Below, piece after piece: positions 35,683 to 40,873 of a DNA stretch of 64,000 nt (within the stretch, counting starts at the first letter, position 1; each line of letters begins with the position of its first letter). Made by a program: the position numbers and the translations under genes. The stretch comes from Janibacter limosus NBRC 16128. GTDB taxonomy: Bacteria > Actinomycetota > Actinomycetes > Actinomycetales > Dermatophilaceae. A model generated the notes under the pieces. That model did not search any database and was not told where the DNA came from. It was given only the letters and a program-made list of their open reading frames with translations. The DNA lies in contig NZ_BCSS01000004.1 in the NCBI RefSeq assembly GCF_001570985.1, forward strand, positions 1 through 64,000. The letters are read 5' to 3'.

Positions 35683-35773
35683 GGTGCCTCCGGGGCGTGA
35701 GGTCGGTCTCGCGCCCGAACGTATCGGTCAGCACCGACGAAGCGGAGTCCGGTTCCGTTCGTGAGAACGGGCA

Positions 35774-35779
35774 TAGGCT
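35774..35779 (+). promoter_or_regulatory. -10 element for leaderless dgt
   Basis: TAGGCT ends 7 nt before the GTG at 35787, which settles the start against longer in-frame alternatives. Confidence 0.6.
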
Positions 35780-35786
35780 CCCGAGC

Positions 35787-37019
35787 GTGAGCAACCAGAG
35801 CGATCGTGAGCGGTGGGTCTCCGAGGACCCGGTGCACAAGCGTGCCGACCGGGACGACTTCGCACGAGACCGCGGGCGCCTCATCCACTCGGCGGCCCTG
35901 CGGCGGTTGTCGGCCAAGACGCAGGTGCTCGGGCCGGGCAGCGACGACTTCGTGCGCAACCGGTTGACCCACAGCCTCGAGGTCGCCCAGATCGGCCGCG
36001 AGTTCGGTGGGGCGCTGGGCTGTCGGGCCGACGTCGTCGAGGTCGCCTGCCTCGCGCACGACCTGGGGCATCCCCCCTTCGGCCACAACGGGGAGACCGC
36101 GCTCAACGAGATCGCGGACGCCATCGGTGGCTTCGAGGGCAACGCGCAGACGCTGCGCATCCTCACCCGGCTGGAGCCCAAGCGGGTGCACCCCGACGGG
36201 CGGCCGGCGGGGCTCAACCTCACTCGCGCCAGCCTCGACGCGGCGACCAAGTACCCGTGGCGGCGCGGGCAAGGCCCTTCTCCGACACCGAAGTTCGGCG
36301 CCTACGAGGATGACCTTCCGGTCTTCGACTGGATGCGCGAAGGGGGACCGGGCGGCTTCGTCCGCTGCCTCGAGGCCGATGTCATGGACTGGTCCGACGA
36401 CGTGGCCTACTCCGTGCACGACGTCGAGGACGCGATCGCGTCCGGGCGGCTGGACCTGCGACAGCTGCGCGATGCCCACGACACCGACGCGGTCCTCGAC
36501 ATGGCCGTGCGCTTCTTCGCCGCGGACCTCGGGCGTGACGCCGTGGGCGAGGGGTTGGAGCGGATCCTCGCGACGGGCGCGGTGCCCGATGCCTATGACG
36601 GCTCCCGGGCGGCGCTCGCGGGCCTGAAGGACATGACCTCGCGGATCATCGGACGCTTCGTCCACGCTGCCGAGGAGGCGACGCGGGCTGTCCACGGCAC
36701 GGGCGACCTCGGCCGCTACGAGGCCCGTCTCGTCGTGCCGGACGACTCGCTCGCAGAGGTGGCCGTGCTCAAGGCGGTGGCTGCCCACTTCGTCATGTTC
36801 TCCGGTGAGCGCGACGACGAGTACCTCCACCAGCGACAGGTCGTCGCGGACCTCGCCGGGTGGTTCGCGGCGGACCCCGAGGGCCGGCTCGACGCCGACC
36901 TCAGGTACGACCTCGCGGCGGCGAGCGACGACGCCGCCCGGCTGCGGGTCGTCGTCGATCAGGTCGCGGGGCTGACCGACGTGCGCGCGCTGGCGCTGCA
37001 CGCTGCTCACTGCGCCTGA
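35787..37019 (+). CDS. dgt: Deoxyguanosinetriphosphate triphosphohydrolase-like protein
   Basis: HD-domain enzyme that releases tripolyphosphate from dNTPs and so limits the nucleotide pool. From the GTG at 35787 the product is 410 aa. The HD metal residues are visible as H in N-R-L-T-H-S-L-E-V (about 57-65) and H-D-L-G-H-P-P-F-G-H-N-G-E (about 91-103), with a later D for the pair. The opening R-x-D-x-x-R-D-R-x-R-L-I-H-S-A-A-L-R-R-L is typical. dgt-dnaG proximity is common in Actinobacteria. Confidence 0.93.
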   Translation: MSNQSDRERWVSEDPVHKRADRDDFARDRGRLIHSAALRRLSAKTQVLGPGSDDFVRNRLTHSLEVAQIGREFGGALGCRADVVEVACLAHDLGHPPFGHNGETALNEIADAIGGFEGNAQTLRILTRLEPKRVHPDGRPAGLNLTRASLDAATKYPWRRGQGPSPTPKFGAYEDDLPVFDWMREGGPGGFVRCLEADVMDWSDDVAYSVHDVEDAIASGRLDLRQLRDAHDTDAVLDMAVRFFAADLGRDAVGEGLERILATGAVPDAYDGSRAALAGLKDMTSRIIGRFVHAAEEATRAVHGTGDLGRYEARLVVPDDSLAEVAVLKAVAAHFVMFSGERDDEYLHQRQVVADLAGWFAADPEGRLDADLRYDLAAASDDAARLRVVVDQVAGLTDVRALALHAAHCA

Positions 37020-37102
37020 GCGCAGGGGGAGCCCTCCCCATGGCCCTTCCCGGGGGCCCCGCCTAGGCTCGCGACAAGCGCAGGTGCCAGGGAAGGGCAG
37101 CA

Positions 37103-38887
37103 GTGGGACTGACACATGGGATGGACTCCCAGCGGATCGTGGGCATCGCCACGCAGGTGCGGGCGCAGGCCCGCCGGCTCCACGAGGTCGAGCAGTCCGG
37201 CTCCTCGGGTGCGCGTCTGCTCGCCCAGGCATGGGAGGGATCAGACGTCCAGGCGCTGCTGGCCCGGTGGGAGGGCGTGCGTGGTGACCTCGTGGGCGCC
37301 GCAGAGTCCTTGGCGGCTGTCGCTGAGGAGATGGTGCGCCAGAGCGAGTCCCAGGACGAGGCATCCGGTGGATCCGGCGGGGCCGGAGGTGGAGGTGCGG
37401 CAGGCGCACGAGGACGCGATGGCGGCCGGGGCAGCGGCCGCTCAGCCCTGTGGACGGGAGCACCTCACGGAATGACCTTCGTGCCGGCCGGGCAGGGCAC
37501 GACCGGCCCCATCGATCTCGGGCCGGGCGTCAGCCGGTGGATGCAGGACGGGATGACCGGGCGACGGGTCGAGGTCGAGGCCGCGGATCCGCCCACTGCT
37601 GCGGAGCGGCGCTCGCGAGAGGCGGCCAATGCCCCACGAGGCTCCGCGGGGGTGGGGATGGGCGGACTGTCGTACCGCGATGGGCAGTGGACCCTGGAGG
37701 GCAAGGTCCCGATCGATGTCGATCCACGGGTCAAGGGCACCTACGAGGTCGAGGTGGGCAAGGAGGAGTGGAAGGCGCGCGCCGGGGTCGAGGTCGGTGG
37801 CGGCGTCGACACCGGCCTGAAGATGCCCAAGAGCGGCCCCTTCTTCGAGTTCGATGCCGAGGGCAAGGTGACGACCACGGTGGGGGTCTCCGTGCCGGCC
37901 GGCACCGTGGACCCCAATGCCCTGAACCCCCTGGCCCCCGAGGATGCTCCCGTCGGCACGGTCTGGGACGTCGAGGCCACGGCAGAGGCTCGGGCCGAGG
38001 GAGCGCTGGGGCGCCGCAATGTCGGCATGTCCGGCTCGTACGAGAACGTGGTCTACGACAAGACGTCCATCGAGGTCCTCGAGGACGACAAGGTCCTCAT
38101 CACCCGGGGCGATGGCCAGACGGTCGACAACGAGGCCGGTCTGCGGGTCCAAAAGGGGGTCAAGCTCGACCTCGGCGCGGGCTCGCAGAGCGAGGCCGGA
38201 GCGATGGAGTCGGTGGTCGTCGACGTATCCACCCCGGAGGGCAAGGCGGCGTACGACCGCTTCCTCACGACGGGTGAGTGGCCGCAGGAGAGCGGCGACG
38301 GCGCGGTGAGCGGGACGACGGTCCTGGAGACGGCGGACTGGGAGGAGACGCGCAACGCTGGTGTCGGGCTCGGTGGGGCGTCGGCGGACTCCGAGAGCGT
38401 GGTCTTCCGGCACAACCAGACGACCGAGACCCTCCCCGACGGTTCGTCGCAGGTCGTGCGCATCGCGTCGGCGAGCGACGGCAGCCAGGTCGAGCACAAC
38501 CAGCATCTGGACCCGCAGGGCAACCCCACGCCGGGTGGCACCTACACCTACACGCTCGACATCACGGACCCGGTCTACGCGGAGCGGGTCGAGCAGAACT
38601 GGGGGATCACCGTGGAGCCCGGTGAGACCGTCGAGATCACGGTCACCGAGGCCGAGATGAAGGCCATGCACGAGGCCAACACGGGTGCGGGGCCCGTCGA
38701 GGGGGCCCCGGCCGATCCCAACCCCGCGACTGCCGGCGACGAAGGCACCTACAGCATCGACCTGGTCCAGACGCAGGGCGACGGGACCGTCGACGAGCTG
38801 CAGCGGGCCTGGGCCGAGGTCGAGCCCGGTCCCGGGGACGGGACGACCTCGGCCCCGGGATCGGCGCGCGTGGTGACCGAGGGCTAG
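37103..38887 (+). CDS. Large WXG100-like protein of unknown function
   Basis: I do not recognise a family over the full 594 aa. The GTG at 37103 has GGAAGGG upstream, and TAGGCT at 37064-37069 is a likely -10. Residues 8-85 look like a helical hairpin with W-E-G at about 44-46, like WXG100/ESX substrates. A Gly-rich linker (about 90-115) follows, then about 470 residues rich in beta-type, acidic, Thr/Val/Gly segments with repeats of G-T-Y-x-Y/V-x-V/L and few Cys (none seen). No signal peptide or catalytic motif is evident. It sits alone between dgt and dnaG. A type VII secreted protein is possible, but no ESX gene is in the window. Confidence 0.7.
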   Translation: MGLTHGMDSQRIVGIATQVRAQARRLHEVEQSGSSGARLLAQAWEGSDVQALLARWEGVRGDLVGAAESLAAVAEEMVRQSESQDEASGGSGGAGGGGAAGARGRDGGRGSGRSALWTGAPHGMTFVPAGQGTTGPIDLGPGVSRWMQDGMTGRRVEVEAADPPTAAERRSREAANAPRGSAGVGMGGLSYRDGQWTLEGKVPIDVDPRVKGTYEVEVGKEEWKARAGVEVGGGVDTGLKMPKSGPFFEFDAEGKVTTTVGVSVPAGTVDPNALNPLAPEDAPVGTVWDVEATAEARAEGALGRRNVGMSGSYENVVYDKTSIEVLEDDKVLITRGDGQTVDNEAGLRVQKGVKLDLGAGSQSEAGAMESVVVDVSTPEGKAAYDRFLTTGEWPQESGDGAVSGTTVLETADWEETRNAGVGLGGASADSESVVFRHNQTTETLPDGSSQVVRIASASDGSQVEHNQHLDPQGNPTPGGTYTYTLDITDPVYAERVEQNWGITVEPGETVEITVTEAEMKAMHEANTGAGPVEGAPADPNPATAGDEGTYSIDLVQTQGDGTVDELQRAWAEVEPGPGDGTTSAPGSARVVTEG

Positions 38888-38950
38888 GACGACGCGGTCG
38901 GTGGCGCGACCTAGACTCAGGTCACGGTCGATGTGGGAGCGAGGTGACCA

Positions 38951-40873
38951 GTGGCGGGACGGATCCGCGCGGAGGACGTGCAGGCGGTCAAGGAGCGCTC
39001 CTCGATCACGGACGTCGTCCGTGAGCACGTGAGCCTGCGCACCGCTGGTGTGGGCTCGATGAAGGGGCTGTGCCCCTTCCACGACGAAAAGACGCCGAGC
39101 TTCACCGTGCGCGAGACCGTGGGCGCCTACCACTGCTTCGGTTGTGGTGAGGGCGGCGACGTCATCTCCTTCGTCCAAAAGCTGGACCACCTGACCTTCG
39201 CCGAGTCCGTGGAGCGGCTCGCGGGCAAGCTCGGGATGGAGCTGCGCTATGACGAAGGGGGTGGCCCCCGTGACGGGGTCGGCCTCGGCAAGCGATCGCG
39301 CCTCATCGAGGCCCACCGCGCGGCGGCTGAGTTCTACCACTCGCGACTGCTCGAGACTCCCGAGGCACGGATCGGACGAGACTTCCTGCGGGAGAGGGGA
39401 TTCGCCTCTCCCGAGGCGAAGCTCTTCGGCATCGGCTACGCGCCCCGGTCGGGGGAGGAGCTGGCCCGGCACCTGCGAGGCAAGGGTTTCACCGACGAGG
39501 AGCTGGTGATCGGTGGTCTCTGCGGTCGTGGTTCCCGAGGCCTGTACGACCGCTTCCGCGGGCGCCTGATCTGGCCGATCCGCGACATCACCGGCGACAC
39601 CATCGGCTTCGGTGCGCGGCGGTTGTACGACAACGACCGGATCGGTGCCAAGTACCTCAACACCACCGAGACGCCGATCTACAAGAAGTCGACGGTCCTC
39701 TACGGGCTCGACCTGGCCAAGAAGTCCATCCGTGACGACCGTCGGGTCGTCGTCGTCGAGGGCTACTCCGATGTCATGGCCGCCCACCTGTCCGGGGTGG
39801 GAGGTGCCGTCGCGACCTGCGGCACCTCCTTCGGCGAGGACCACATCAAGGTCATCCGCCGCATCGTGCGCGACGAGGCCGACCTGGCTCCGGCCAAGGT
39901 CGTCTTCACCTTCGACGGGGACAAGGCCGGTCAGGGCGCGGCGATGAAGGCGTACGCCCAGGACGACAAGTGGGCCAGCCAGAGCTTCGTCGCGGTGGCC
40001 AAGGACGGCATGGACCCGTGCGACCTACGGCTGCGCGAGGGGGACGCCGCCGTCCGTGACCTCGTCGACGACGCGGTGCCGATGTTCGAGTTCGCGGTGC
40101 GCACGACGCTGGCCCGCTTCGACCTGCACACTGCCGAGGGGCGGGTGCGGGGGATGGGCGCGGTCGCGCCGATCATCAACAGCATCCGCGACTCCTCCCT
40201 GCGTCCCGAGTACGTGCGCACGGTCGCTGGTTGGGTCGGCGTCGAGGTCGAGCAGATGCGCGACGCGGTGACCCGAGCCGGGCGGATCCAGGCCCGCGCA
40301 GAGGCTCAGGGCGACTCCCGCGCCAACCCCGAGACACCCGAGCCGACCGCCGGTGAGGCCGCCGCCGGTGTGCCCGCCCCCGACCTGCGCGACCCGATCG
40401 TGCAGGCCGAGCGGCAGCTGCTGCAGTCGATGCTGCAGCACCCCTCGATGTTTTCCCCGGAGGACCTCGATGCGGTGGAGCCGGAGGGTTTCGCCGCACC
40501 GGCCCACCGCGCCGTCTTCGACGCCGTCCGGGAGGTCGGACCCATCGACCAGGGGGTCAGCCTGACCGCCTGGCACGCGCGGATCGACGAGGCGACACCA
40601 CTGGCGGTCGCGCCCCTCGTCGCCGAGCTGTCGGTCGCCCCCCTTCCCGTCGTCCACGACCAGTCGACCGGCGCGCCGCCCCCGCACTACACCCGCTCCT
40701 TGCTGGTGCGGGTGCGCGAGGTGGCCGTCGGGCGGCGCATCTCCGATGCGATGTCGCAGATGCGCCGGCTCGCGGCCGACCCGTCCTCGGACCCGAGCGC
40801 GCTGCGCGAGCTGTCCCTGACCCTGCAGGGCCTCGAGCGTGAGCGCGCTGCCCTGAGAGCGGAGTTGCAATGA
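38951..40873 (+). CDS. dnaG: DNA primase DnaG
   Basis: Synthesises RNA primers for replication. The 640-aa protein has the CHC2 zinc finger (C41, H44, C62, C65 in C-P-F-H and H-C-F-G-C), a TOPRIM catalytic core (about 260-345) with V-V-V-E-G-Y-S-D-V and F-D-G-D-K-A-G, and a C-terminal helicase-binding domain (about 470-640). A GTG start follows GGGAGCGAGG; TAGACT at 38912-38917 is a plausible -10. It overlaps the next gene by 4 nt. Confidence 0.97.
   Translation: MAGRIRAEDVQAVKERSSITDVVREHVSLRTAGVGSMKGLCPFHDEKTPSFTVRETVGAYHCFGCGEGGDVISFVQKLDHLTFAESVERLAGKLGMELRYDEGGGPRDGVGLGKRSRLIEAHRAAAEFYHSRLLETPEARIGRDFLRERGFASPEAKLFGIGYAPRSGEELARHLRGKGFTDEELVIGGLCGRGSRGLYDRFRGRLIWPIRDITGDTIGFGARRLYDNDRIGAKYLNTTETPIYKKSTVLYGLDLAKKSIRDDRRVVVVEGYSDVMAAHLSGVGGAVATCGTSFGEDHIKVIRRIVRDEADLAPAKVVFTFDGDKAGQGAAMKAYAQDDKWASQSFVAVAKDGMDPCDLRLREGDAAVRDLVDDAVPMFEFAVRTTLARFDLHTAEGRVRGMGAVAPIINSIRDSSLRPEYVRTVAGWVGVEVEQMRDAVTRAGRIQARAEAQGDSRANPETPEPTAGEAAAGVPAPDLRDPIVQAERQLLQSMLQHPSMFSPEDLDAVEPEGFAAPAHRAVFDAVREVGPIDQGVSLTAWHARIDEATPLAVAPLVAELSVAPLPVVHDQSTGAPPPHYTRSLLVRVREVAVGRRISDAMSQMRRLAADPSSDPSALRELSLTLQGLERERAALRAELQ

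Follow-up and report, generated by a model that had tools for sequence, protein, structure and literature searches.

Polymorphic toxins of the WXG/LXG type, which are exported by type VII secretion systems (T7SS), combine an N-terminal export module with variable C-terminal domains and go together with an FtsK/HerA-type ATPase (PMC3482391, PMC5555719, PMC8321402). Here, we analysed a gene for a WXG100-headed protein that lies between dgt and dnaG in Janibacter limosus, within a window of 64,000 nucleotides (the whole stretch of DNA under study). Our analysis suggests that the window protein is probably a T7SS substrate or effector, delivered by its N-terminal module, transcribed from the promoter of a T7SS regulon and carrying a beta domain that functions beyond the producer's cytoplasm. 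As judged from sequence, we regard export by the T7SS as very likely and a role outside the cytoplasm as likely; a role as a classical toxin is unsupported. The locus comprises the following features:

35697..37019, plus strand: dgt-like HD phosphohydrolase (HD and HD_assoc domains), left flank of the putative cargo site
37026..37039, no strand: palindrome GGGGAGCCCTCCCC, exact, candidate operator of the T7SS regulon, centred 70 nt ahead of the start codon
37064..37069, plus strand: TAGGCT, a -10-like hexamer that follows the palindrome at a distance of exactly 24 nt
37090-37097: Shine-Dalgarno-like GGGAAGGG, before the GTG start of the window gene
37103..38887, plus strand: coding sequence (ORF) of the window protein, WXG100 module plus beta domain, 594 aa, GTG start, dN/dS 0.165
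37103..37372, plus strand: WXG100/ESX helical hairpin, residues 1-90, with W44xG46, D48 and Q84xxxS88, the putative T7SS delivery module
37364..37657, plus strand: linker, residues 88-185, Gly-rich and then of low confidence (pLDDT mostly <35), dN/dS 0.49
37658..38707, plus strand: acidic beta domain, residues 186-535, with ~11 long antiparallel strands predicted, a conserved family with no Pfam match
38912..38917, plus strand: -10-like element (TAGACT) in the promoter of dnaG
38951..40873, plus strand: dnaG (DnaG domains), right flank of the putative cargo site

The first-pass annotation had described a 594-aa ORF between dgt and dnaG, with an ESX-like N-terminal hairpin containing W-E-G, a Gly-rich linker and a long acidic, beta-rich region, and had noticed neither a toxin motif nor an immunity gene; all of this was borne out. 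The ORF is confirmed at 37103-38887 on the plus strand, with both flanks identified by domain matches, the Gly-rich stretch covers approximately residues 88-105, the protein C-terminal to the linker is acidic (pI 4.3), long beta strands are predicted beyond the linker, and neither family searches nor inspection of the genes beside the window gene yielded a toxin motif or an immunity gene. The window protein lacks hydrophobic stretches of the transmembrane kind (max KD19 0.73) and is covered by no curated family in Pfam, NCBIfam, PADLOC or PHROGs; Pfam matches to PEGA (E=0.19) and Ntox11 (E=0.16) fell short of the cut-off and were dropped. A tblastn search for carriage of the window gene on plasmids and phages gave no match. 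The ortholog in a second genome, G014, is intact and 94% identical. Between the two, dN/dS is 0.165 overall, ~0.13 in the WXG part and the beta domain (0.127 and 0.126, respectively) and 0.49 in the linker, the fastest evolving part, which argues for selection on the protein and for flexibility at the joint between its parts.

Structure comparison matched residues 1-90 with solved structures of EsxA/EsxB (Foldseek probability 1.0; VIA Z ~11; rmsd 2.1-3.2 A, about 2.3), with W44-E-G46 located in the turn of the helical hairpin, and the module is related in sequence to a stand-alone 96-aa WXG100 protein of the same genome (35% identity over 88 aa, E=2e-11). The NCBIfam WXG100 profile (TIGR03930) gives the window protein 15 bits against a cut-off of 44.85 (E=0.02), and PF06013, which some sister module fusions pass, is not reported for it, so that we file the window protein as a WXG100-module fusion and not as a WXG100 family protein. 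The module, ~95 aa long, stands at the head of 12 genes in this genome, the stand-alone WXG100 gene included. W44, G46, Q84 and S88 are invariant in 77 of 77 module sequences and D48 is nearly so, these being counts that describe the set and do not test membership in it, because it includes profile seeds and near-duplicates from related genomes. All five residues are present in the window protein. The YxxxD/E motif after helix 2 occurs in none of the 77 sequences, and the invariant Q84xxxS88 stands in its place, possibly as an alternative export signature.

Genes of a T7SS, which the earlier proposal of a secreted effector presupposed, were found in this genome in the form of an EccC-like ATPase and a WXG100 pair. 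Specifically, the stand-alone WXG100 gene (C59:5447-5737) lies just 3' of the gene for a 1467-aa EccC/EssC-like ATPase with FHA and FtsK/SpoIIIE domains and, as read by eye, a ubiquitin-like N-terminus; a search for EccB, as a mark of mycobacterial-type ESX (T7SSa), gave no match in this genome, nor in the control genomes. Some FtsK-type paralog is encoded in all 16 genomes of the genus, and we count as T7SS-positive those with a close ATPase at 82-99% identity. By this measure, 11 of the 16 encode the EccC-like ATPase, and the module is present in exactly those 11 and in none of the other five. Such a match would arise by random labelling once in 4368 cases, a figure weakened by the relatedness of the genomes, which do not amount to 16 independent tests. 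In G009, the T7SS locus additionally encodes MoxR, DUF58 and FHA-like proteins, plus another WXG100. One FHA-like protein of this locus (L089:841-1632), with a possible HTH region seen by eye and no Pfam match, is a candidate regulator of the palindrome described below. A diverged T7SS (ATPase 49%), with a different set of WXG100-like genes and without module fusions, was observed in G005 (L162), where a near-match of the palindrome follows the ATPase gene.

Most module genes share the promoter pattern GGGGAGnnCTCCCC-N24-TA[GC]nnT, which we examined at 37026-37069 and at loci L042-L062 and L089. With no more than one mismatch, the palindrome precedes 50 of 67 module genes, compared with 0.2% of shuffled sequences, and its distance to the -10 element is 24 nt in 31 of the 34 spacings found among these genes and 25 nt in the remaining 3. 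A genome scan for GGGGAGnnCTCCCCAT with one mismatch allowed, in which a perfect palindrome can count on both strands, gave 24-42 matches per T7SS-positive genome and 0-2 per T7SS-negative genome; the reversed-pattern control gave 0-2 in every genome. In 9 of the 10 T7SS loci examined, the palindrome immediately follows eccC and precedes the WXG100 pair; that of the window gene, at 37026-37039, is exact and has its -10 element at 37064. The exact palindromes listed for this genome number seven: five stand immediately before module genes, a sixth before an operon containing a module gene and the seventh, at L161:4142 (G000:C23:51139), before a lipoprotein/OmpA-like gene pair that may belong to the regulon despite lacking a module. 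A two-gene operon under the palindrome (L045:4761-7297) encodes first a 282-aa protein, placed as a chaperone might be, and then a module-lipase-like protein. GGGGAGnnCTCCCC-N24-TA[GC]nnT thus looks like the operator and promoter of a T7SS regulon in Janibacter and its relatives in genera g61 and g244; the palindrome would be centred near -43 of the predicted transcription start, a position typical of activators. A literature search for the palindrome strings found no paper.

Comparison among relatives, a check proposed at the outset, found the gap between dgt and dnaG empty in seven, where the two genes are ~100 bp apart, occupied by other cargo elsewhere, and holding a window-type copy in only 2 of 16 genomes, intact in both. 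The gap contains a fusion of the module to a calpain-like protease in G003, G011 and G012 (L094, L092 and L096), followed in the G012 copy, as scanned, by small DUF6406-type genes, and a module-WHH nuclease followed by a SUKH gene in G008 and G015 (L100 and L095). Given these module fusions in five other Janibacter genomes, we regard dgt-dnaG as a cargo site that takes putative T7SS effector genes, with the window gene as one such cargo. In G004 and G005, both T7SS-negative by the 82-99% ATPase criterion, the gap holds a metabolic gene pair. At the dnaG promoter, CCTAGACT is kept in most empty sites, and because the promoter element is also retained downstream of the window gene, the latter leaves the expression signals of dnaG unbroken. 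In G008, ~1.3 kb of transposase-derived-looking sequence lies between the SUKH gene and dnaG, near the dnaG -10 element (L100; CCTAGGGCGTGTTGC ... GCAACACGCCCTAGACT).

Homologs of the beta domain are present in 8 of the 11 T7SS-positive Janibacter genomes, window type included, and in four other actinobacterial genera (g34, g61, g244 and g92). The core Janibacter copies inspected occupy one other locus, with a DUF853-like helicase gene on one side and, mostly, an LhgO-like oxidase gene on the other, and are sometimes arranged in tandem. Two core genes, in G007 (L082) and G008 (L133), are apparently frameshifted, suggesting that the family is dispensable in some lineages. In the tree, the window copy joins the g244 homolog, apart from the core copies of Janibacter (support 99/97, on long branches), and may accordingly have come by transfer. 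The homologs from g61 (four genomes) are all module-headed, with the palindrome exact in three and carrying one mismatch in one, and the g244 homolog is module-headed as well. Those from g34 and g92 have an N-terminal hydrophobic, signal-like segment, read by eye as a Sec-type signal, together with paired cysteines, and lack both the module and the palindrome. In these two genera, the beta domain is thus apparently exported via Sec without a WXG100 module. Tentatively, the family might have switched routes, using Sec in some actinobacteria and the T7SS in others upon gaining the module and the regulon promoter, and in the T7SS form it may serve as an effector that is active on membranes or the envelope and for which no immunity protein is required.

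The beta domain has no match in Pfam, NCBIfam or PADLOC and no recognisable toxin domain. The structure model of the full-length protein has a mean pLDDT of 52 and a pTM of 0.44, and that of the beta domain alone, of only moderate quality (pLDDT 66, pTM 0.61), shows ~11 antiparallel strands, the longest of 22 residues. The structure library yielded matches to barrels of the outer membrane and to the sheet of ApoB (VIA Z 10-13, with low TM-scores and Foldseek E >0.001); sequence-profile comparison with solved structures returned chance hits only, and a viral fold library contained no credible match. Structure prediction and fold search, also suggested in the first pass, hence delivered a beta meander but no confident relative at this pTM of 0.61, and the model supports a large, long-stranded meander sheet with no named fold. 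Given that the amphipathicity of the strands is only modest (combined p=0.01), the idea of a membrane barrel is kept as part of the toxin alternative considered next.

The first-pass suggestion of a T7SS effector or polymorphic toxin divides into two parts. Its T7SS part stands, on the ATPase, the WXG100 pair, the co-occurrence in 16 genomes and the promoter. Its polymorphic-toxin part applies to other occupants of the site (calpain, WHH with SUKH) and, more generally, to the sister genes, in which a common N-terminal module is joined to varied tips (calpain, WHH, lipase-like and metallopeptidase-like), but not to the window protein, with its conserved C-terminal family, lack of an immunity gene and Sec-type relatives. 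Could the window protein nevertheless be a classical antibacterial T7SS toxin, with a beta domain that attacks the target cell and an immunity protein encoded elsewhere, or needless because the target is reached only from outside? We consider this unlikely, and retain it because of the company the window gene keeps: at the same site, sister species hold fusions of the module to calpain and to a WHH nuclease, accompanied by likely immunity partners, under a promoter and with a module identical in kind, and a long-stranded meander with matches to outer-membrane proteins and the above amphipathicity could be membrane-active. Against this, no toxin family is matched, no immunity-like gene neighbours the window gene or any beta-domain copy inspected, the C-terminal region is a conserved family and not an exchangeable tip, and the signal-bearing relatives stand alone.

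The presence of the family in 8 of 11 T7SS-positive Janibacter genomes, the fixed locus of the core copy, the shared promoter and the lack of an immunity gene would also suit a protein that is not an effector but a structural accessory of the T7SS, such as a sheath on its outside, a conduit or an anchor at the surface. Such a role is quite improbable, given that three T7SS-positive genomes lack the family, that it is apparently frameshifted in two, and that versions with a Sec-type signal and without the module occur elsewhere. Hardly credible at all is a decaying or cytosolic effector relic, which would fit a dgt-dnaG copy found in only 2 of 16 genomes, but both copies are intact, with dN/dS of 0.165, and the signature residues of the module and the promoter are preserved.

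Under the preferred reading, an exported T7SS substrate, transcription would start from GGGGAGnnCTCCCC-N24-TAGnnT, which also precedes the T7SS WXG100 pair and the majority of the other module genes; the window protein would accordingly be made together with the machine. Residues 1-90 would fold as a WXG100 hairpin, presumably with a partner, and bring the protein to the EccC/EssC-like ATPase for export, and the acidic beta domain would then act outside the cytoplasm of the producer. Because its relatives are apparently exported via Sec elsewhere and no immunity gene lies beside any copy, action at the envelope or surface (adhesion, binding, or attack on a target that the producer lacks or does not expose) appears more likely than that of an intracellular toxin warhead.

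The results point to a large, testable set of putative T7SS effectors in a non-mycobacterial actinobacterium. The signature GGGGAGnnCTCCCC-N24-TAGnnT offers a means of finding such effectors without homology and points to a regulator, the apparent natural swap from Sec to T7SS would reveal where in a long substrate the delivery signal resides, and dgt-dnaG is marked as a place in the chromosome that receives effector genes as cargo.

Compared with known systems, the beta domain resembles outer-membrane beta barrels and the ApoB sheet in its long, antiparallel up-and-down strands (VIA Z 10-13), but the 3Di matches are weak, the TM-scores low and there is no sequence relation; to our knowledge, Janibacter has no classical outer membrane. 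The hairpin shares the fold and the W-x-G turn of stand-alone EsxA/EsxB (TIGR03930, PF06013; Z ~11), but is fused to ~500 more residues and remains below the family cut-off in sequence, and unlike mycobacterial substrates, with YxxxD/E, the module has QxxxS after helix 2. The closest parallel is found in the WXG/LXG toxins, with which the gene set has in common the N-terminal module, the variable C-terminal domains, the FtsK/HerA-type ATPase and, in the Janibacter sister genes, calpain, metallopeptidase-like and WHH-nuclease domains with SUKH partners. The window protein departs from them in that its C-terminal domain, without a toxin motif or immunity partner, is conserved across five genera and, elsewhere, is found with a Sec-type signal.
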